In this document: positions 28,200 to 37,652 of the stretch, piece by piece | Layout: each line of letters opens with the position of its first letter | How positions within the stretch are numbered: position 1 is the stretch's first letter | Assembly: GCF_000374445.1 (NCBI RefSeq) | Contig: NZ_KB894406.1 | Location: forward strand, 1 to 64,000 | DNA from: Actinokineospora enzanensis DSM 44649 | Lineage (GTDB): Bacteria; Actinomycetota; Actinomycetes; Mycobacteriales; Pseudonocardiaceae | Length of the DNA stretch: 64,000 bases | Direction: 5' to 3' | Made by a program: the position numbers and the translations under genes | The notes under the pieces: model-generated | Databases searched by the model: none | What the model was told of the DNA's origin: nothing | The model's input: only the letters and a program-made list of their open reading frames with translations

Positions 28200-28856
28200 A
28201 TGGACACCACGGTCTACCTGTCCGACGGCAACGGCGACGGCCTGGCCGACACCACCATGGTCGACACCAACGGCGACCACGTCGCCGACTCGGTGACCAC
28301 CGACCTGAACGGCGACGGCACGGCCGACGTGGCCGTGTACGACGTCGACGCCGACGGGTACGCGGACGTGATCGTCGTCGACCCGACCGCGGTCCCACCC
28401 GACACCACCGGCGACTACACCAACGTCGACTACACCGGGGCCGACCACACCGCGGACGATCACACCGGGGGCGACTACACCAACGTCGACTACACGCCCG
28501 TCGACACCGCGACCCCGGACTACGGCAGCGGCATCTACGACATCCCCAGCGGCACCCAGGCCGTGATGGACATGACCGGCAGCAGCATGCACGACGCATC
28601 GACCATCTACCACGACGCGATGGACCCCGGCTCGGTCCCCGCGGACGACGTCGCCGCCGCGAACGAGCACATCGAGAACGCCGCCCGCACCTCGCACGCA
28701 CTGGAGGGGCAGATCTACCAGGACCAGATCTACCACGACATCGACGTGCAGAACCAGCAGCGCGCGGCCCTGGACGAGGTACACGAGACCGCCACTGACA
28801 ACGCGATCGAGACCGACCGCGCCATCTCGCAAGCCCAGGACGCACTCGACCAGTGA
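28200..28856 (+). CDS. acidic protein with EF-hand-like Asp repeats
   Basis: A 218-residue very acidic protein. Residues about 9-60 hold four D-x-[DN]-x-D-G-like loops: DGNGDGLADT, DTNGDHVADS, DLNGDGTADV, DVDADGYADV. They resemble calcium-binding EF-hand or FG-GAP loops. Residues about 70-100 contain two copies of GDYTNVDYT separated by Thr/Asp/His repeats, and the C-terminal 80 residues are helical (AANEHIENAARTSHALEGQIYQ). No signal peptide. Its stop overlaps the start of the GrpE-like membrane gene, so it is part of the same unit. In mycobacteria an equally low-complexity protein (IniB) accompanies dynamin-like IniA/IniC; the parallel is loose. Confidence 0.7.
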   Translation: MDTTVYLSDGNGDGLADTTMVDTNGDHVADSVTTDLNGDGTADVAVYDVDADGYADVIVVDPTAVPPDTTGDYTNVDYTGADHTADDHTGGDYTNVDYTPVDTATPDYGSGIYDIPSGTQAVMDMTGSSMHDASTIYHDAMDPGSVPADDVAAANEHIENAARTSHALEGQIYQDQIYHDIDVQNQQRAALDEVHETATDNAIETDRAISQAQDALDQ

Positions 28857-29773
28857 CCCGTCTCCGCACCGCCACCCGCGCGGCTCTTCTCATCCTCGTC
28901 GCCACCGCGGCCATGACCGCCCCGATCAACGCGGGCGCGGCCACACTCGCGGTGTCCACGACGACGCTTGCCCTGCCGTCGAGACCCGAGCCCACGGCAG
29001 TGCCGCAGAACCCGGCGCAGCCGAACCCTCGCGAGACCGCGGGAGCACCCAGACCCGGCGAGACGGCGGTGCAATCGAAGCCCGGGGAGACGACGGTACT
29101 GCCGAAGCCGGGCGAGGTCGGGGTGCCGTCCGGGGTCGGGCGGGTGCCGCCGAGCACGGTCGCCGAGCCGGTGACGTCGGTTGTGCTGGTGCCGTCGGAT
29201 CAGCCGCCGGTGCGGCCGCCGGAGGAGACCGGGGCCGGGCTGTTGGTGCCCGCGCTCATCGGGCTCGGGGTGATCGCGCTGGTGGTGGTCCTGCTGCTGG
29301 TGTTCCGTCGTCGGCGGCCGCCGGTGTCGATGTCGTGGCCGACGCCGGTCGCGCCGACGGCGATGGTGCCGCCGGTCGACCTGCCGGACGACCGGGTGGT
29401 GTTGGCCGACGCGTTGCGTGATGTCGCGGAGCGCGCGCCCGGTGACGCGATCCGGCAGCAGGTGGCGCGGTTGCTCGACGAGGAGCCGAAACGTGATGCG
29501 CTGGTGCTGGCCTGTGTGCGCTACCGGGACCAACTCGGCGCGCGCCTGCCGGAGTTGGCGGCGCGCTTGTACGGGGCGATGAGCCGTGTCGGGGTCGAGG
29601 AGGTTCGGTGCGAGGGGGAGCTGTTCGACCCGACCCGGCACACCGCGACGGCGACGGTCACCGCGACGCGGGCCGACCAGCATGATCGGGTCGCGGAGAC
29701 GGTGCGGCCGGGATACCTCGACAACGGTCGCGTCGTGCGGTTCCCCGAGGTCGTCGTCTACCGGGCCGGGTGA
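28853..29773 (+). CDS. membrane-anchored GrpE-like domain protein
   Basis: A 306-residue protein. It has an N-terminal signal-like hydrophobic stretch (about 9-30), a Pro/Glu-rich linker with PGET/KPGE repeats (about 40-120), a transmembrane segment GAGLLVPALIGLGVIALVVV (about 125-145) and a soluble C-terminal domain. The last 75 residues match the GrpE head: LYGAMSRVGVEEVRCEGELFDPTRHTATA and GYLDNGRVVRFPEVVVYR, the canonical GE-x-FDP-x-x-H and GY-x-x-x-GRV-x-R patterns. GrpE is the nucleotide exchange factor of Hsp70. A divergent Hsp70 is encoded 5.5 kb away in the same block. Starts GTG, overlapping the upstream stop. Confidence 0.85.
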   Translation: MTRLRTATRAALLILVATAAMTAPINAGAATLAVSTTTLALPSRPEPTAVPQNPAQPNPRETAGAPRPGETAVQSKPGETTVLPKPGEVGVPSGVGRVPPSTVAEPVTSVVLVPSDQPPVRPPEETGAGLLVPALIGLGVIALVVVLLLVFRRRRPPVSMSWPTPVAPTAMVPPVDLPDDRVVLADALRDVAERAPGDAIRQQVARLLDEEPKRDALVLACVRYRDQLGARLPELAARLYGAMSRVGVEEVRCEGELFDPTRHTATATVTATRADQHDRVAETVRPGYLDNGRVVRFPEVVVYRAG

Positions 29774-29781
29774 GGCCGGTG

Positions 29782-30330
29782 TCAGCGTTCGAGACGTTCC
29801 CGCAGCGCGCGGCGGCCCCGGTGGATCCACACCCGCACGGAGTTGACCGGCGCCTCCTGCACGGCGGCGACCTGGTCGTAGGTGAGGCCCGCCGCCCAGA
29901 GCAGCACGGCTTCGCGGTGGCGTTCGGGCAGGTCTGCCAGCGCGGCGCGCACGTCCATCGCGGACGCGACCGCGTCGGCGAACGGGGCCGCGGTGGGCTC
30001 GGCGGTGCCGTTGAGGTCGACCTCGGCGCGACGCTTGCGCGACCGCAGGATGCCGAGCGCGGCGTTGCGGGCGATCGCGTAGACCCAGACCGCGAACGCG
30101 CAGTCGCCGTTGAACCTGTCCAGCCCGCGCCACGCCGCGATCTGCGCGTCCTGCAACGCGTCGGCGGCGTCGGCGTGACTGCCGGTGAGCCGAAAACAGA
30201 GCGCGTAGGCCTGCCGCTCGGCGCCGGTCCACAGCGCACGGAAGGCGCGCTGGTCACCCGCGGCCGCGGCCCTGACCAGCTCCTCTTCGGACTCGGGGGC
30301 GTCGTCCACCGGGAACGGACCGGCACTCAC
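29782..30330 (-). CDS. ECF-type RNA polymerase sigma factor
   Basis: A 182-residue two-domain sigma factor: region 2 (about 25-85; DAADALQDAQIAAWRGLDRF, FAVWVYAIARNAALGILR) and region 4 (about 120-175; LPERHREAVLLWAAGLTYDQVAAVQEAPVNSVRVWIHRGR). No anti-sigma gene is adjacent. It converges on the GrpE-like gene with an 8-base gap and is divergent from the His/Asp-rich gene, so it probably controls part of this block. GTG at 30330 has GGAG upstream. Confidence 0.92.
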   Translation of the reverse strand: MSAGPFPVDDAPESEEELVRAAAAGDQRAFRALWTGAERQAYALCFRLTGSHADAADALQDAQIAAWRGLDRFNGDCAFAVWVYAIARNAALGILRSRKRRAEVDLNGTAEPTAAPFADAVASAMDVRAALADLPERHREAVLLWAAGLTYDQVAAVQEAPVNSVRVWIHRGRRALRERLER

Positions 30331-30431
30331 CGGCGACTCCAGGGCACGCGCGCTCCGATCCGGGGACTGCGGGACGGGTCAGCCAGTGATTCGCCGCCGG
30401 TACCCCCGGCGTTATCGCGAAAGGGTGCGCC

Positions 30432-30803
30432 GTGACCGAGGATTACGACCGGAATGCCCTGCGTGAACTCCTCTTCGACAGCGTCGACCCGCTGCCCGCC
30501 GCGCACGGGGCGGCGATGTTCGAGACGACCTTCGCGGACACCGGCGAGGTCGCGCACGACCTGTACCCGGTCGGCGCCGACTTCGGCGACGCACCCACCG
30601 AGCCGTACACAGTGGACGAACCGGACCACTTCCGGCCGGACCTCGACCACCGATCCGACCACCGATCCGACCATCAGCCCGACCACCATTTCGACCCGCA
30701 CCACGACCCGGAACCGGACCTCGACACCCACCACGACCACGGCCCGGACCACGACTCGGACCCCGGCCTCGACCACCAGCACCACATCGACCCGCCGTGG
30801 TGA
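30432..30803 (+). CDS. His/Asp-rich protein
   Basis: A 123-residue protein. The first 65 residues are an ordinary acidic sequence (TEDYDRNALRELLFDSVDP at the start). The rest is a run of Asp-His repeats such as DHRSDHRSDHQPDHHFDP, with about twenty histidines in 55 residues. This composition suggests metal binding or a disordered acidic tail. It begins with GTG and has a modest GAAAGGG site. Divergent from the ECF sigma gene, and 112 bases upstream of the first dynamin-like gene on the same strand, so it may be part of the system. Confidence 0.7.
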   Translation: MTEDYDRNALRELLFDSVDPLPAAHGAAMFETTFADTGEVAHDLYPVGADFGDAPTEPYTVDEPDHFRPDLDHRSDHRSDHQPDHHFDPHHDPEPDLDTHHDHGPDHDSDPGLDHQHHIDPPW

Positions 30804-30915
30804 CCGATTCCCCACCGACGCCCGTTGTTCGACCGGGATCGACCGGTAGCGGTTGACCGGTCGAAGTCGATGGGGAGAGTGCTGACCGGGTTCGGGTTGT
30901 TTGTGGAGTGATCAG

Positions 30916-33279
30916 GTGACGACACGTGAGCGTGCCGCCATGGTGCTGCGCACCATGTGCCGCGACGGCGCCGCGCGTGCCCACGACGCCGGGTTGCGCG
31001 CCGAACTCGCCGCCATCGCCGAACGCCTGGAGCTGCCCCTGCAACTGGCCGTCGCGGGCGCGGTCAGCGCGGGCAAGTCCACCCTGATCAACGCCATCCT
31101 GGGCCGCCCGGTGGCGGCCGTGGACGCGGGGGAGTGCACCCGGGTCGTCACCTGGTACGAGTACGGACCGGAACCCGGCCTGCTGGTCGAGGAAGTCGCC
31201 GGCCGTGTCCGCCACCTGCGCCTCCCCGACACCGGACTGCCCGAGAACCTGGGCGTCCCGACCGAGGACGTGCTCCGCCTCCGCGTCCGCCTGCCCATGC
31301 CGTGGCTGCGCACCGTGACCGTGATCGACACCCCGGGCCTGAACACGGTCGGCGCGGCCACCGAGGAAGCCACCCGCCGCCTCCTCTTCGGCGACGCGGC
31401 GGCCGAACACGCACAGGCTCTGCTGTACGTCCTCCGCTACGTCCAACGATTCGACGCCGACACCCTCACCCAGTTCCGCGCCCTGTCGGCCGCGTGCGGG
31501 TTGACGGCGGTCAACACGGCCGCTGTGCTCAGCCAGATCGACCGCCGCTCCGACGACCCCGACCCGTGGCCGGTCGCCCACCGCCTCACCGCCCGAGCGA
31601 CCACCGAACTGGGCGCCACGGTGCTGGACGTGGCCCCGGTGATCGGCCTCCTCGCCGAGACCGCCCGCGCCCGCCTCCTTCGCCCGCCGGACCTCACCGC
31701 CCTGCACACCCTGGCCGAGTGCTCACCCGCCGAGTTCGAGGACGCCCTCTTCGACCTGGAGGAGTTCACCGACGGCTACGGCCCGCTCCCCGCCGCCGAG
31801 GCCCGCGCCCTGGTCGACCGCCTCCACCGCTACGGCATCACCATCGCGGTGGACCACCTGCGCAGGCACCCGACGGCCACCCTCGACGACCTCTACCGGC
31901 TACTGGTGACCCACTCCGGCTTCGCACCGCGCACCGCCGAAGGACGGCAAGGAGTCACCGCGAACGGAGCCGCCCGCCCGGATCTCGGGCATGGGCCTCC
32001 GCCGTGGCAGCGGGGTGCTGCAACGGAGCGCGGAACCGTCCGCCCAGGTCCTGGGCAGACGAGTACTCCTTGCCAGGTCGGCGATGCTCCCGGGATCGGG
32101 ACTGGGGACGGTTGTCCCCGTCCCGGCCCCGGACCGGTCGACACGCCGCAGTCAGCGGTTTCCGCCGTCGACGGCGTGCAGGATGGCGCGGCCGCGGGCT
32201 CGGGTTTCGAGCACGACGGCACCGGACAGCGAGAGGGTCTCTCCGCTGGCGAAGGCGGTCATCGAGCCTCGGCGGCCCGGCTCAGCCCGGCCCGGTCGGG
32301 TGTTTCCCGTTCGGGGACGCCTGAGCCGGACCCGGCGCAGGGCGGTGTTCGGCGGCAGGTGTCCGGCCCCGCCCTCGTCGACACACCCGCGGGTCGCGGG
32401 GGCGGGGCCGGACATGTGCGCGTTGGTGGCGGATATGGTTCGGTGGGGTCGGACCACCGGACTTTTGTCGGTAGAACCGAGATCGGTAAAACAGGGATCG
32501 GTGGAACTGAGAGGGTCGAGGAAGACCGGGCCCGGTCCGAGGTACCGAGCAGTCCCACGGTGACGGACGTGCTCGATCGGTTCACCAGGCATGCGGACCT
32601 GCTCAAGGCGCATGCCGCTCTTGTTCGGTTGCGTGGCTTGGGCGCGCGGTTCCCCGGCTTGGCCGGGCCGGATCGCGCGCTGGTGGGGCACCTCCTTTCC
32701 GCCGTCGATGAGAACCGGCCGATCGCGGATGAGTTGGCGGGGTTGCGGGTGTTGTCGGCGTGTGCGGCGGTGGCCAAGGGCGTATTGGTACTGGACGAGG
32801 CCATGACCGCCGAGTTGCTCACCCTCGTGCGTGGTGACACGATCGCGGCCCGGTTGGGGCTAGCACCCGACGCGAGTGCGGACGAGGTCGTTCACGCGGC
32901 GCGGGCGGCGTCGCGGCGGTGGCGGCAGGTGGCGTTTATGGCGGGTTCCACCGTCGCGGGGCACCGGGCTCGGGATGTGCTCGCGGCGGTGGAGGACGTG
33001 GCCGAGGCGGCTGCGCCGGTCGGGTTCGAGCGGGCGTTGGTGGAGCGGTTGCGGGATGAGTCGACCTTGACCGAGGGTGATCGGCGGGTCGTCCGGGCAC
33101 TGCTGGACGGCGTCGATCGGCTCGCCATGACCGGCGCTGTGTCCGAAGTGGACATAGCGCCGCGGGCCGCGGCCTGTGCGGTGCGGTTTCGGGAGCTGCT
33201 GCACCGACCGCTCCCGACACCCGTTCGGCGGGCGGTCGAGGCGGCCTGCGATGCGTTCGAGTCTCTGGCTGGGACATGA
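30916..33279 (+). CDS. dynamin-like GTPase 1
   Basis: A 787-residue bacterial dynamin-family protein. The G1 loop GAVSAGKST is at about 48-56, the G2 threonine probably in ECTRVVTW, and G3 VIDTPGLNTVG at about 136. The G4 position reads LSQIDRRS instead of the usual TKxD. Helical regions follow to about residue 340. Residues about 340-550 are a Gly/Pro/Arg-rich, disordered insert with atypical codon usage; helical sequence resumes to the end. Such proteins hydrolyse GTP to remodel membranes; mycobacterial IniA is an example. The GTG at 30916 has GGAG seven bases upstream. The second dynamin gene starts 113 bases downstream. Confidence 0.9.
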   Translation: MTTRERAAMVLRTMCRDGAARAHDAGLRAELAAIAERLELPLQLAVAGAVSAGKSTLINAILGRPVAAVDAGECTRVVTWYEYGPEPGLLVEEVAGRVRHLRLPDTGLPENLGVPTEDVLRLRVRLPMPWLRTVTVIDTPGLNTVGAATEEATRRLLFGDAAAEHAQALLYVLRYVQRFDADTLTQFRALSAACGLTAVNTAAVLSQIDRRSDDPDPWPVAHRLTARATTELGATVLDVAPVIGLLAETARARLLRPPDLTALHTLAECSPAEFEDALFDLEEFTDGYGPLPAAEARALVDRLHRYGITIAVDHLRRHPTATLDDLYRLLVTHSGFAPRTAEGRQGVTANGAARPDLGHGPPPWQRGAATERGTVRPGPGQTSTPCQVGDAPGIGTGDGCPRPGPGPVDTPQSAVSAVDGVQDGAAAGSGFEHDGTGQREGLSAGEGGHRASAARLSPARSGVSRSGTPEPDPAQGGVRRQVSGPALVDTPAGRGGGAGHVRVGGGYGSVGSDHRTFVGRTEIGKTGIGGTERVEEDRARSEVPSSPTVTDVLDRFTRHADLLKAHAALVRLRGLGARFPGLAGPDRALVGHLLSAVDENRPIADELAGLRVLSACAAVAKGVLVLDEAMTAELLTLVRGDTIAARLGLAPDASADEVVHAARAASRRWRQVAFMAGSTVAGHRARDVLAAVEDVAEAAAPVGFERALVERLRDESTLTEGDRRVVRALLDGVDRLAMTGAVSEVDIAPRAAACAVRFRELLHRPLPTPVRRAVEAACDAFESLAGT

Positions 33280-33347
33280 TCTCACCTCCGGCTTCCACAC
33301 CATGATGGCCTTGGAAAACCAAGAGCCGCAACGAAAAGACTTCCACC

Positions 33348-33376
33348 TGTGGATGAATCGAGGGACCTGTGGACAA
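33348..33376. repeat. paired DnaA-box-like element, copy 2
   Basis: TGTGGATGA (33348-33356) and TGTGGACAA (33368-33376), 20 bp apart, 15 bases upstream of the second dynamin-like start. It is in the same orientation relative to its gene as copy 1. Confidence 0.7.
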
Positions 33377-33391
33377 CTCGTGGGGGCCGCG

Positions 33392-35212
33392 GTGAGCCAG
33401 GAGCTGATCCGCCGGGTGCTGCGGCTGGCCAACGACGCCCACGGCCTGGCGCGCGGCCATGATCGGGACGATCTCGCCGGGCTGTTGGCCGGTCAGGCCG
33501 CGCGCTGGTCGGAGCAGTCCGCCACGGTCGTCGTGGCCGGGGCGCAGAAGCGGGGCAAGAGCAGACTGGTCAACGCGTTGATCGGGATGCCAGGCCTGCT
33601 GCCGGTGGACGCGGACATCGCCAGCGAGACACAGGTCTCGATCAGGCGGGGGCCCGCGCTGGAAGTCACGATTCGGCGTGGGGAAAGCGTTTTCGTCATC
33701 CAGCCGGGTGAGCTGGCCGACTACGCGTCCGTGCTCGGCGAACCGGCCAAGCGACGCGACGTGACGGGTGTCGAGATCACCGTGGACGCGCCGCTCCTGG
33801 ACGGCGTCCGGCTCGTCGACACGCCCGGCGTGGACAGCCTCACGCTCGGCCATCGGCACGCCACGGTCGCCGCGCTCGGTGGGGCCGACGCGCTGTTGTT
33901 CGCTGTCAGCGCACAGGATCAGCCGATCCTGCGGCACGAACTGGACTTCCTCGCCGAGGCCGCCACCCGGATCCACACGGTCGCGTTCGTGCTGACCAAG
34001 GTGGAGGACTCGACCGGGTGGCGCGAGCTGCTCACCGAGAACCGGGAACGTCTCGCCCGGTCGGTCGTCGATCTTGATCCCCGGGTGGCCAGGCGACTGC
34101 TCGCCGCGCCCTGGCTGCCGGTCAGCTCGAAGCTCGCCGAGGCCGCGCTGTCGTCGCCGAACCCGGAGCGGGCTGCCGCGCGCCGTGAGCGCAGTGGGTT
34201 CCCCCTGCTGGAGCGGCATCTGCGCCGCTGGGCGGACCGGCGTGAACTCGTCCGCGCGGGCGGGGTGCTCGCTCTCGCGACCTCCGCGCTGCGGGAACTG
34301 GAGACGTCACTGCGCGACGCGGCCGCCGTGCAGAACGCCGACGAGGCCGGGCTGACCGCTCGGAAGTCCGAAGTGGACTGTGAGATCACGGACCTGGCCG
34401 CGCGCCGCCGGGACCGCAGGCGGCTCGGGATCGACCAGCAACTGCTCGCCCGCGAGGCCACCCGGCGCGCCAAGGCGCTGCTCGACGGCTACCGGCGCAC
34501 GTACGAGGCGGAGATCGCCGACCTGTCCGGCCCGCGCGACACCAACGCCTACGCCGCCGCGCTGCCGGACAGTCTCGACCGCTCGCTCACCGCCGCCTGG
34601 ACCGAGATCACCGCCGAGACCGCGGACGTCGCGGCTGCCGTGATCAACGAGTTCCTGCGGGCCATGGACGTCCGCGCGGCCGCCGTCGATGCCGAGCTGC
34701 TCGTCCGGCCGGACACCGTCGCCGATATCCGGACCACCCCCGGCCGGGCCCGCTTCGACCCGCTGGTGGAGGGCCTGCCCACGGTGATGATGGCGGGCAG
34801 CACCAGCTACCTCGCCATGACCCTGGGGGCCACCGCCCTGTCACCGCTCGCGCCGGTCGCGATCGGCTCCGTCCTTGCCATCGGCTTTCTCGCCCACAAG
34901 CGAAAGCTGGCCGCCTCCGCCCGCACCCGCACCGCATTGACCGCCACCGTCCGCGAGACCTTCGCTGCGGTCACCGCGGACATCATGCTCGCCGTGGAGA
35001 AGGCCGTACTGGCCTGGCGCGCCGCCGCCGAACAGGCCGTCGACGACGCATTGACCGCCCGCCACCACGACCTGGAGAGGCGCAGGCAGTCGCTCGGCAG
35101 GGGGAAGGGAACCGGCGGCGCCGCCGTCCAGGACCTCGCCGCGACGGAGAACCACCTCGCCCAGGCGGGCGACCTGCACCAAGCCCTCGACGCCGCGCTT
35201 CGGGAAGGCTGA
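33392..35212 (+). CDS. dynamin-like GTPase 2
   Basis: A 606-residue dynamin-family GTPase. It has G1 GAQKRGKSRLVNAL (about 50-63), a G2 threonine in ASETQVSI, G3 LVDTPGVDS (about 148), G4 LTKVED (about 200), a long helical stalk with coiled-coil-prone segments (about 290-420), and a paired hydrophobic region TVMMAGSTSYLAMTLGATALSPLAPVA to IGSVLAIGFLAHKR (about 465-508) that could be a membrane-inserting paddle. The GTG at 33392 is chosen because GGGGG precedes it and an upstream repeat element would otherwise be coding; an in-frame ATG at 33303 is an alternative. Paired dynamins often form hetero-oligomers. Confidence 0.9.
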   Translation: MSQELIRRVLRLANDAHGLARGHDRDDLAGLLAGQAARWSEQSATVVVAGAQKRGKSRLVNALIGMPGLLPVDADIASETQVSIRRGPALEVTIRRGESVFVIQPGELADYASVLGEPAKRRDVTGVEITVDAPLLDGVRLVDTPGVDSLTLGHRHATVAALGGADALLFAVSAQDQPILRHELDFLAEAATRIHTVAFVLTKVEDSTGWRELLTENRERLARSVVDLDPRVARRLLAAPWLPVSSKLAEAALSSPNPERAAARRERSGFPLLERHLRRWADRRELVRAGGVLALATSALRELETSLRDAAAVQNADEAGLTARKSEVDCEITDLAARRRDRRRLGIDQQLLAREATRRAKALLDGYRRTYEAEIADLSGPRDTNAYAAALPDSLDRSLTAAWTEITAETADVAAAVINEFLRAMDVRAAAVDAELLVRPDTVADIRTTPGRARFDPLVEGLPTVMMAGSTSYLAMTLGATALSPLAPVAIGSVLAIGFLAHKRKLAASARTRTALTATVRETFAAVTADIMLAVEKAVLAWRAAAEQAVDDALTARHHDLERRRQSLGRGKGTGGAAVQDLAATENHLAQAGDLHQALDAALREG

Positions 35213-35330
35213 ACGGAGCAGGGTTCAGGCGGCGACTCGAATCCGAACGCTGCCGAGTATCAAGGGCCGAGTACCAAGTGCACTGCTCCCATGCCCTTGC
35301 CGGATATGCCGATGCCCCGCGTTCGACCCA

Positions 35331-37652
35331 CTAGGAGGGCAGGCGTACCAGTGACGCCACCCCGGTGCGCCCGTCGCCCGGCGGCGCGTCCGGGGCGTGC
35401 AGCGCGAACCCCTGCCCGACCGGCTCCAGCCATCCCTGGGCCGCCGCGACCTGGTCCACCCGCACTCCGCTGACCCGCAGCACCTGCGAGGTCTCCACCC
35501 CCGCCTGCGCGCCGATCCACAGGACGTTCCCGTCCACCCGGATCCGCGGCGCCTCCGCCGGTTCCACCGATGCCAGGTTACCGAGCAAACCTGGGAAATT
35601 TCCAAGACCGCGCGGCTGGCGTTCGTCGCACATGTGCAGCGCCAGTCCCCGGTTCGGTACCAGCGACTCCTGCACCACCCCGTACATCCGGTTCCCGGCA
35701 GCCACCCACCGCGCTGTTCCCGCGCGCGGGCGCTCCACGAACAGCTTGCGGTCCGTGCCCGCGAACGTCTCCAGCCCGATATTGGTCCCCAGATACCAGG
35801 AGGACTCCCGGCGCACGACCTGGTTGACCCACAACGCTGTCGTGTCCTGCTGCTCCGCGACGACCGACAGCACGCCGTTCGTGTCGACCGTGCCCACCGT
35901 CTGGCTCGGCACGAGCACACTGCTGCGCAGGCCGGTACGCCGCTTCGTCGTACGTCCCAGGATCACCGCGCCGGAGCGGCCGTCGCCCAGGGCCGTCGGC
36001 GGAATCGAGGTCGGCATCGACGGGTCGATCAGGCGCCTGCGGGCCCCGTCCTCGTTGATGTACCAGGTGCACGACGGGCCGAGCGTGTGCGGGGCGGCGG
36101 CCACCGGGGCGAACGCCGTGGCCGGGCGGATCAGCAGGACCTGCAGGTCGCCGGTCTCGCCCCAGGGCAGCCCGACCGAGTTGTCCACCGCGCGGGTGCC
36201 CGCGCCGCGCAGGAACACCCAGCCGACGGCGCCCTGGGCGACCAGCCACGGGTCGAACGCGGTGGGAATGTCGGTGGTCGAGCGGATGATGAGCTCGGGG
36301 CTCAGCGCGTGCACCCGGATGACCTGCGCACGCCGTTCCGCGACCAGCACCAGGTCCTCGGCGATGGCCCAGCCGGTGACCTCGGCCATCGGCAGCTCGC
36401 GCTCGACGTTGCCCGCGCGGTCGAGCTTGCGCACGAGGTGGCCGCCCTCGACGGCGTTCCAGGTGTAGAGGGCGCCGTTGGTGGCCTGCGCGTCGACCAC
36501 GTCCTCGGCCAGGACAGGGAACACGCTGCCGCCGATGGTCCGGGGTGCCTCGGGGGTCGCGCGCAGCGCCAGCGAGCGCTGCGCCCAGCGGGCCGCGCCC
36601 AGCGCGACCACGGTCTTCGGGTCCTGCCAGGTGCGGACCAGGCCGTTGTACTCGCCCCGCAGGCTGTCCTGGACCAGCGGGATCCGGCTGGCACCGCCGG
36701 TCAGGAAGATGCCGCGCAGCTCGTCCGGGGCCCGGCCGCTGCCCTCGATGCTACGTGCCAGCAGCCGGGTGGTGCGGCGCACGTCCTCGCCGATCAGCGC
36801 GTCGAACTCGGCCCGGGTGATCCGGACGTCCACGTCCGCGCCCGGGACGTACTGGTTGGCGTCGTCGTAGTCCGACAGCGACTCCTTGGCCAGCCTGGCC
36901 TCGGTGAGCAGGTCGGAGGCCGCGGCCAGCCAGCGCCGGTCCGGGTTGGTGCTGACCTGCGCCCACCAGTCCGGGGCCAGCCGGTCGAGCTGCTCGCCGA
37001 AGTGGTGGAACACGCGCTCGTCGAAGGTCTCGCCGCCGATCTCCGGGTCGCCGCCGGGCGGCCCGACCACGGTGAACCCGGAGCCGTCCACAGTGAGCAC
37101 GGCCGTGTCGAACGTGCCCCCGCCCAGGTCATAGACCGCGACGCTGTCCTTGCCCCGGAGGGTGTCGGCCGCGTGTGTGTGGCTGTAGTGGACGGCCGCG
37201 GCGACGGGTTCCTCGATCAGTTCCACCGGGACACCCGGCAGCACCATCTCCGCGACCTCGGTCAGCACCTGCCGCTGTGCGGGCGTCCACGCGACCGGGT
37301 GGGTGAGCACCAGGCCGACCGGCGTGGCCCCGTCGAAGCGGCGGCGGGCCTCACCGACGAACAGCTCCAGCAGGGCGGCCAGCGCACGTTGTACGGTGAC
37401 CGGCTCGCCGCCGAGCAGCATCGGGCGCCTGCCCACGTACCGCTTCGGGTTGCGCTCCGCACGGTCCGGGGACCGGCCGACCATGCGCTGGGCCAGCGTG
37501 CCCGCGACCAGCCGACCGGACTCGTCGAGCAGCACGGTCGAGGGGATGCGGCGCTCGCCGGAGACCTCGATCGACTCCACCCGGTCCGCGGTGGCGATGG
37601 CGCCAGCCGAGAAGCTTGTCCCGAGGTCGACCCCCAGACTCCACCGTGTCAC
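35331..37652 (-). CDS. Hsp70-family ATPase with C-terminal beta-propeller-like domain
   Basis: A 773-residue protein. Residues 1 to about 375 are an Hsp70/actin-fold nucleotide-binding domain: phosphate-1 motif GVDLGTSFSAG (7-17), VELIEEPVAAAVHY (about 145), phosphate-2 motif YDLGGGTFDTAV (about 172), and adenosine motif FLTGGASRIPLV (about 328). The usual substrate-binding domain is absent. Residues about 385-770 instead show repeated short strands with G-x-x-W and DTNGVLSV-like blades (GWAIAEDLVLVAERRA, VDTNGVLSVVAEQQ, VDGNVLWIGAQ), best read as a beta-propeller. The GTG at 37652 follows GGGGAG; a GTG 18 bases upstream is possible. Convergent with the dynamin pair. Confidence 0.9.
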   Translation of the reverse strand: MTRWSLGVDLGTSFSAGAIATADRVESIEVSGERRIPSTVLLDESGRLVAGTLAQRMVGRSPDRAERNPKRYVGRRPMLLGGEPVTVQRALAALLELFVGEARRRFDGATPVGLVLTHPVAWTPAQRQVLTEVAEMVLPGVPVELIEEPVAAAVHYSHTHAADTLRGKDSVAVYDLGGGTFDTAVLTVDGSGFTVVGPPGGDPEIGGETFDERVFHHFGEQLDRLAPDWWAQVSTNPDRRWLAAASDLLTEARLAKESLSDYDDANQYVPGADVDVRITRAEFDALIGEDVRRTTRLLARSIEGSGRAPDELRGIFLTGGASRIPLVQDSLRGEYNGLVRTWQDPKTVVALGAARWAQRSLALRATPEAPRTIGGSVFPVLAEDVVDAQATNGALYTWNAVEGGHLVRKLDRAGNVERELPMAEVTGWAIAEDLVLVAERRAQVIRVHALSPELIIRSTTDIPTAFDPWLVAQGAVGWVFLRGAGTRAVDNSVGLPWGETGDLQVLLIRPATAFAPVAAAPHTLGPSCTWYINEDGARRRLIDPSMPTSIPPTALGDGRSGAVILGRTTKRRTGLRSSVLVPSQTVGTVDTNGVLSVVAEQQDTTALWVNQVVRRESSWYLGTNIGLETFAGTDRKLFVERPRAGTARWVAAGNRMYGVVQESLVPNRGLALHMCDERQPRGLGNFPGLLGNLASVEPAEAPRIRVDGNVLWIGAQAGVETSQVLRVSGVRVDQVAAAQGWLEPVGQGFALHAPDAPPGDGRTGVASLVRLPS

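Follow-up and report, generated by a model that had tools for sequence, protein, structure and literature searches.

The way in which bacteria dismantle and recycle dynamin assemblies is, to our knowledge, poorly understood. We analyzed a 64,000-nucleotide stretch of the Actinokineospora enzanensis DSM 44649 genome (contig NZ_KB894406.1, positions 1 to 64,000; hereafter the window), in which seven genes between positions 28200 and 37652 encode a pair of dynamin-like GTPases (DynA and DynB), an Hsp70-type ATPase joined to a predicted β-propeller (Hsp70-propeller), a membrane protein with a GrpE head, an extracytoplasmic function (ECF) sigma factor, and two small proteins. This block is very probably a conserved functional unit.

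The closest described systems each share part of this set; statements about them refer to excerpts of the cited articles. IniA, a membrane-fission dynamin of the iniBAC operon, is induced by cell-wall drugs (PMC6715688). As in the block, a dynamin pair (IniA/IniC) lies in one operon behind a leading gene, and the profile of DynB matches IniA. However, IniB is glycine-rich, whereas the small protein encoded ahead of DynA (30432–30803) is acidic, has no Pfam or NCBIfam match, and is not an IniB-type leading gene product by either database. The excerpted description of iniBAC also comprises three genes, without a GrpE-head, Hsp70-propeller, ECF, or Asp-repeat gene (PMC6715688). Actinobacterial DO-GTPase/GAP1-N2 systems likewise combine paired GTPases with GrpE and with HSP70, the latter sometimes lacking its peptide-binding domain (Kaur et al. 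2020, PMC7159879). Their GTPases belong to a separate TRAFAC family, whereas the block is stable in composition and has its Hsp70 fused to a propeller. None of the seven protein families of the block was assigned to a DO-GTPase or GAP1 gene by Pfam and NCBIfam, a search that used no dedicated profile for such genes.

According to Liu et al. 2018 (PMC6104087), the dynamin gene that neighbors Nostoc BDLP1 encodes a DnaJ-like domain. This remark ties a bacterial dynamin pair to the Hsp70 cycle and is the nearest printed hint of a dynamin–Hsp70 link that we found; there the J domain is fused to the dynamin, whereas the block has separate genes for the GrpE head and the Hsp70-propeller. Streptomyces DynA/DynB are also an actinobacterial dynamin pair, but PMC8748795 does not use the words Hsp70 and GrpE. 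The DnaK–DnaJ–GrpE machinery shares an Hsp70 ATPase domain and a GrpE head with the block, which differs in having no substrate-binding domain, no nearby J-domain gene, and a GrpE head anchored in the membrane. Apart from the J-domain remark in PMC6104087, no dedicated chaperone partner of bacterial dynamins appeared in searches of the openly licensed PMC literature. Among the matches listed in that literature, the set is of a known kind, dynamin operons, with added parts not described together, which agrees with the view of an earlier note on this DNA that no described system has this composition.

Domain make-up of the seven-gene block

The earlier note had assigned seven genes to the block, and Pfam scans combined with gene calls recovered all seven at agreeing coordinates. 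The features are as follows, with occurrence given among the 31 window-type clusters defined in the next section:

28200..28856, + strand: Asp-repeat protein with DxDGDGxxD repeats and a further C-terminal part; relative in 30/31 clusters
28853..29773, + strand: GrpE-head membrane protein with an N-terminal signal or hydrophobic segment, a Pro-rich outer part, one transmembrane helix, and a cytosolic GrpE β head
29782..30330, − strand: ECF sigma factor (Pfam Sigma70_r2 and r4_2); relative in 28/31 clusters
30390..30414, + strand: putative promoter, TTCGCCGC-N13-GTTA, preceding the small gene–DynA–DynB operon; motif and spacing in 8/9 Pseudonocardiaceae clusters
30432..30803, + strand: small acidic His/Asp-rich protein with a conserved N-terminus (LRELLFD...MF..TF); relative in 22/31 clusters
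30916..33279, + strand: DynA, dynamin-like GTPase (Pfam Dynamin_N); start at 30916 or 30940
33380..35212, + strand: DynB, IniA/BDLP-type dynamin-like GTPase (Pfam Dynamin_N); start at 33380 or upstream at 33332
35331..37652, − strand: Hsp70-propeller, with an Hsp70-type ATPase domain (residues 1–363) and a β-propeller (about 380–773); frame read from 37670

The product of 35331–37652 matched HSP70 (2e-36, Pfam), and its nucleotide-binding domain keeps the catalytic motifs GVDLGTSFS, DLGGGTFD, GGETFDERV, and EPVAAA intact. The substrate-binding domain expected after the linker is absent, and a predicted β-propeller stands in its place. For the propeller, only the general fold class is safe; eight blades are likely, not certain. 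Prolyl oligopeptidases lead the Foldseek matches, with a root-mean-square deviation of about 9 to 12, and the whole-length VIA matches include proteins with seven or eight blades. We found no name for this domain architecture. J-domain genes (PF00226) were absent from the vicinity of the cluster in 8/8 genomes, where they lay on other contigs or more than 350 kb away; remote J proteins may still take part. The earlier note had spoken of a complete chaperone nucleotide cycle. Because the substrate-binding domain and a nearby J-domain gene are both missing, a complete DnaK-type cycle must be rejected. The IIB loop of the Hsp70-propeller is 9 residues shorter than in the DnaK of the same genome, and another Hsp70 of this genome, adjoining a GrpE gene, has a loop shorter by 7; the DnaK loop is therefore indecisive as an indicator of GrpE use.

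In the membrane protein (28853–29773), the GrpE match (1e-10, Pfam) covers profile positions 100–163 only, which correspond to the head. This head matches the GrpE of PDB 4ani at 1.2e-8, and the alignment retains the signature residues of the β-wing head. The long N-terminal coiled coil of soluble GrpE is not matched; hydrophobic segments precede the head instead, and two in-frame hydrophobic segments lie upstream in 24 of 27 cassette heads.

Both GTPases matched Dynamin_N (2.7e-12 for DynA, 8.1e-12 for DynB), which places a dynamin GTPase domain in each. For DynB, profile alignment to IniA (PDB 6j72) extends over nearly the full length (1.7e-28), and a long alignment to the BDLP1 profile was also obtained, consistent with a helical neck and trunk. 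DynB has hydrophobic segments at residues 478–496 and 527–545. As to a possible membrane-insertion paddle, all nine DynB proteins compared have, by simple hydropathy, a hydrophobic segment between residues 465 and 520, and none is consistent among nine DynA proteins. Neither dynamin of the block matched a J domain in Pfam. DynA contains an in-frame insertion of ~208 amino acids (about 31927–32550) with low complexity and a weak coding/codon-position signal; L104 and L105, the two relatives from Actinokineospora used for comparison, do not have it. The earlier note mentioned neither this insertion nor the lack of a substrate-binding domain in the Hsp70.

The two small proteins received no specific name from PADLOC or NCBIfam. 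FG-GAP matches to the Asp-repeat protein were weak and below the Pfam cut-off, and inspection by eye revealed no signal peptide. No anti-sigma family was matched by any of the seven proteins in Pfam.

Conservation and regulation of the block

Named genomes were scanned once with a DynB alignment, and of at least 551 loci the 80 best were retained, a selection made by DynB similarity alone. The window-type set consists of L104–L133 plus the window, or 31 clusters, of which L133 is the most distant (34% identity) and L119 lies on a short contig. Given that gene calling missed genes (e.g., ECF in L120 and GrpE in L132), presence was recounted by tblastn; the queries for each family came from no more than 8 of the 31 loci, and those loci are in part matching themselves. 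DynA and DynB occur in 31/31 clusters, Hsp70 and the Asp-repeat protein in 30/31, ECF in 28/31, the GrpE head in 27/31, and the small acidic protein in 22/31. The sole cluster without Hsp70 (L105) stops at a contig edge. The earlier note had made the unit depend on Hsp70 and GrpE-like genes lying beside dynamin pairs in related genomes, and these counts place them there.

Window-type clusters span three families, and their flanks comprise several unrelated gene groups that differ between and within families. Carriers belong to Actinokineospora, Pseudonocardia, Dactylosporangium, Phytohabitans, Actinoplanes, Planotetraspora, Acrocarpospora, Microbispora, Streptosporangium, Planomonospora, Planobispora, and Sphaerimonospora, as well as to unclassified Streptosporangiaceae, Micromonosporaceae, and Actinomycetota. 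Recurrence in three families amid differing neighbors shows that these genes are not linked by accident. The window's genome (8.12 Mb, 87 contigs) has 9 Hsp70-like places, which gives a chance expectation of about 0.02 for an Hsp70 in any 21-kb stretch.

Gene calls place an Hsp70 within about 10 kb at 29/29 scorable window-type loci versus 9/50 scorable others; the corresponding counts for a GrpE head are 25/29 and 29/50. In this tally, L105 and L158 were unscorable (DynB gene not called), and L133, which gains an Hsp70 by tblastn, was counted among the others. A tree of the 80 DynB proteins was built by a quick method and midpoint-rooted for drawing. One side (35 rows, support 97) joins the window type with Parafrankia, Phytohabitans, Streptomyces, and Nonomuraea, and all 35 rows have an Hsp70 neighbor (34 called, L133 by tblastn); on the opposite side, Hsp70 occurs in 4/45 rows and the GrpE head is frequent. 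Parafrankia L153 has the same main parts with a different propeller, arranged as Hsp70-WD40 followed by ECF–DynA–GrpE(TM, transmembrane)–DynB. A propeller apparently replaced the peptide-binding domain twice, with an unnamed propeller in the cassette and WD40 in Parafrankia.

The C-terminal part of the Hsp70-propeller is specific, being found in 14/390 genomes of the window's family, including one marginal match (G355, 8.7e-4) that was set aside. Among the 13 clear genomes of the family, the window's included, 8 have the dynamins adjacent and 4 lack a window-type DynB; in G088, the Hsp70-propeller and a window-type DynB lie at the ends of different contigs. A search for a window-type DynB in 24 genomes, of which 13 carry the Hsp70-propeller and 11, from the same two genera, do not, found one in 9 genomes, all belonging to the 13, and in 0 of the 11. 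Window-type dynamins therefore imply the Hsp70 in the genomes searched, and the reverse does not always hold because four genomes have the Hsp70 alone. In the class, the Hsp70-propeller was retrieved from 8/394 genomes (the window's, six Streptosporangiaceae, and one marginal match in G593, 3.9e-4, likewise set aside). A survey of Streptosporangiaceae found it in 20/150 genomes, several of which overlap with the 31 clusters, and DynB lay within 3 kb of the propeller in 20/20.

Upstream of the small gene–DynA–DynB operon, the motif TTCGCSGC-N13-GTTA is present in 8/9 Pseudonocardiaceae clusters (exception L090); these loci hold one more exact match at another place, in L105. Searching only the window with two mismatches allowed returned 3 sites versus 2.9 expected, which is not above chance, so the weight of the motif rests on its conservation. 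In 17 loci, including three duplicates, no exact match precedes Hsp70, and a common promoter for Hsp70 and the operon was rejected on this count. Upstream, the Hsp70 genes of Actinokineospora resemble one another, even in genomes that lack the dynamins. Between the ECF gene and the operon, 15/30 named window-type loci, all Micromonosporaceae or Streptosporangiaceae, contain an ATGA-N2-TCAY-like element (partly ATGA-N2-CCAY), a pattern drawn up after viewing the sequences. It lies 35–71 bp from the ECF start (35–38 bp in 14/15) and nowhere else in those 15 loci.

A candidate dynamin-resetting machine and alternative readings

Our tentative reading is that the block encodes an ECF-controlled, IniA-type membrane machine for which the Hsp70-propeller ATPase would act as the assembly/disassembly factor and the membrane GrpE head as the reset element. 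Composition, conservation as a unit, domain make-up, and the intact ATPase motifs are observed; action at the membrane, the direction in which Hsp70 works, nucleotide exchange by the GrpE head, and induction by stress are inferred. DynA and DynB would pair as hetero-oligomers at the cytoplasmic face of the plasma membrane. The soluble Hsp70-propeller would recognize a component of this machine through its propeller rather than a peptide-binding domain, and its ATP/ADP switch could load or strip the dynamin assembly, much like Hsc70 stripping clathrin. With its anchor in the membrane and its Pro-rich part outside, the GrpE-head protein would allow nucleotide exchange only at the membrane, so that resetting would depend on location and perhaps on the state of the envelope. 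Accessory roles in the cytosol may fall to the Asp-repeat and small acidic proteins, perhaps as adaptors or as sensors of divalent ions or membrane charge, and the ECF factor would turn on its own divergent operon under envelope stress. The broader proposal, that a dedicated Hsp70-family ATPase powers or resets the dynamins of actinobacteria as a chaperone-derived motor with a propeller in place of the peptide-binding domain and an exchange factor seated in the membrane, is possible, and we hold it with greater reserve. If correct, bacteria would have their own counterpart to the disassembly of coats by Hsc70, the GrpE head so widely encoded between dynamin genes would identify dynamins as general clients of Hsp70, and the Hsp70-propeller fusion would represent an unusual use of the Hsp70 switch without a peptide-binding domain. 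The compact set, with its ATPase, membrane exchange-factor head, and candidate promoter, makes the question directly testable.

Several observations weigh against the proposed resetting machine. A GrpE gene went undetected in the Pseudonocardia clusters, at 0/6 loci by protein search of called genes, with two (L106 and L107) also negative by tblastn. By gene calls, Hsp70 lies within about 10 kb of few of the other dynamin loci (9/50) and of none of the canonical DynA–GrpE–DynB loci of Lentzea. The Hsp70-propeller persists in four Actinokineospora genomes that have no window-type DynB, which also speaks against strict dependence, and it is rare (7 clear cases in the 394 class genomes; 20/150 Streptosporangiaceae). 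J-domain genes are not near the cluster, the operon's promoter motif is missing from the Hsp70 gene, and the insertion in the window's DynA may affect function. Additionally, the DynB tree contains long branches of uncertain place, among them L145, L180, L133, L134, and L153.

Other functions could be served by the same genes. The Hsp70-propeller and the membrane GrpE head might instead form an ATP switch sensing the state of the envelope and gating either the ECF factor or the dynamin GTPase activity, without a force-generating assembly/disassembly step. The membrane-spanning GrpE protein with its outer Pro-rich part, the ECF gene in 28/31 clusters combined with the lack of an anti-sigma match among the seven proteins, and the post hoc element near the ECF start in 15/30 loci are consistent with such a stress sensor. 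We nevertheless consider it unlikely, since the GrpE gene is convergent to the ECF gene rather than in the same operon and Pseudonocardia retains the ECF factor without a detected GrpE gene. A role in division or sporulation, in which the pair would be a paralogue of Streptomyces DynA/DynB stabilizing septa in spore or sporangium formers with Hsp70 as assembly factor, appears improbable. Many carrier genera form sporangia or motile spores, in keeping with such a role. Against it, Pseudonocardia is not known to be sporangiate. The window's genome has a canonical DynA–GrpE head–DynB pair at a second locus too (contig C19), and no known division gene was noticed in the clusters, whose flanks were not annotated by family search. 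In favor of this role, a dynamin pair is also present in Streptomyces, whose DynB works with SepX and the Z-ring (excerpts of PMC8748795).

We give a similarly low probability to a conflict or defense system akin to the GTPase–HSP70(–GrpE) conflict systems of multicellular bacteria. Both dynamins match LeoA-type profiles in PADLOC, a DynA–GrpE–DynB–Hsp70 locus in Nonomuraea (L180) adjoins a caspase-like gene, and dynamin pairs of Streptomyces (L151/L152) and Phytohabitans (L134) lie by an Hsp70 and two GTPases that by sequence resemble DO-GTPases. The cassette is stable in composition, however, with no recurrent variable gene noticed, and among the six window proteins scanned with PADLOC only general dynamin similarity was matched. 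Excerpts of Kaur et al. (PMC7159879) report actinobacterial DO-GTPase systems with HSP70, GrpE, and HSP70 without a peptide-binding domain, but the word "dynamin" is absent from them. That the GrpE-like head is purely a structural adaptor between dynamins, with the Hsp70 link secondary and nucleotide exchange absent, we regard as very unlikely. Although gene calls show no Hsp70 within about 10 kb at 41/50 other dynamin loci while 29/50 have a GrpE head, only the head and not the long coiled coil is matched, and the IIB loop is shortened, the GrpE signature residues are conserved, the loop is also short in the Hsp70 that adjoins a GrpE gene in the same genome, and every DynB row of the Hsp70-linked tree side has an Hsp70 neighbor. 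Retention of Hsp70 without dynamins in four Actinokineospora genomes would fit an accidental neighborhood of unrelated genes; recurrence in three families with different flanks makes this scarcely credible, and for the window-type cluster it is refuted by the co-occurrence counts and flank differences.

Canonical dynamin loci and other relatives

Placement of a GrpE head between two dynamin genes extends more widely than the link to Hsp70. GrpE-head matches occur in 65/80 genomes of the family, some of them ordinary GrpE, and in 13/13 relatives' loci the match is positioned between DynA and DynB (L056, L057, L059–L069). These loci were fetched around GrpE matches, 11 from the best matches and two as same-genus members; L058 is an ordinary dnaK–grpE locus. 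Most of the 13 also hold genes that we take to encode a response regulator with a sensor kinase and a phosphoenolpyruvate carboxykinase. At L059:12226–12912 and in other canonical loci, the gene after DynB encodes DxDGDGxAD stretches with a DUF6802 match, and an Asp-repeat partner may therefore belong to the canonical dynamin locus too.

In 196 sampled genomes of the class, a DynB-type match at 1e-12 was found in 39, of which 9 have a GrpE-head match within 4 kb (G000, G444, G461, G474, G489, G531, G540, G551, and G604). Among ten DynB-type-bearing genomes of a further family of the same order (f2, probably Mycobacteriaceae), seven (G392, G471, G496, G507, G538, G548, and G577) have a GrpE match ~7 to 22 kb away on the same contig. 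This looser dynamin–chaperone neighborhood could be mere synteny.

Variation was also seen at the Hsp70 C-terminus. The Nonomuraea Hsp70 of the caspase-adjoining locus (L180:7939–15804, with GrpE in transmembrane form) has a C-terminal CD225-type membrane domain, and by eye the Hsp70 genes near canonical Micromonosporaceae dynamin loci L157 and L178 seem to end in a hydrophobic segment, which would be another route of Hsp70 to the membrane. Within the window's genome, G000:C41:40000–59427 (L051) has a dynamin-like gene (643 amino acids) ~2.4 kb from a short Hsp70-type ATPase gene (422 amino acids) with some motif residues missing. At G000:C1:655000–671370 (L055), two Hsp70 genes cluster with one for GrpE, which resembles the HSP70/GrpE theme of GTPase conflict systems in the excerpts of Kaur et al. 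2020 (PMC7159879).

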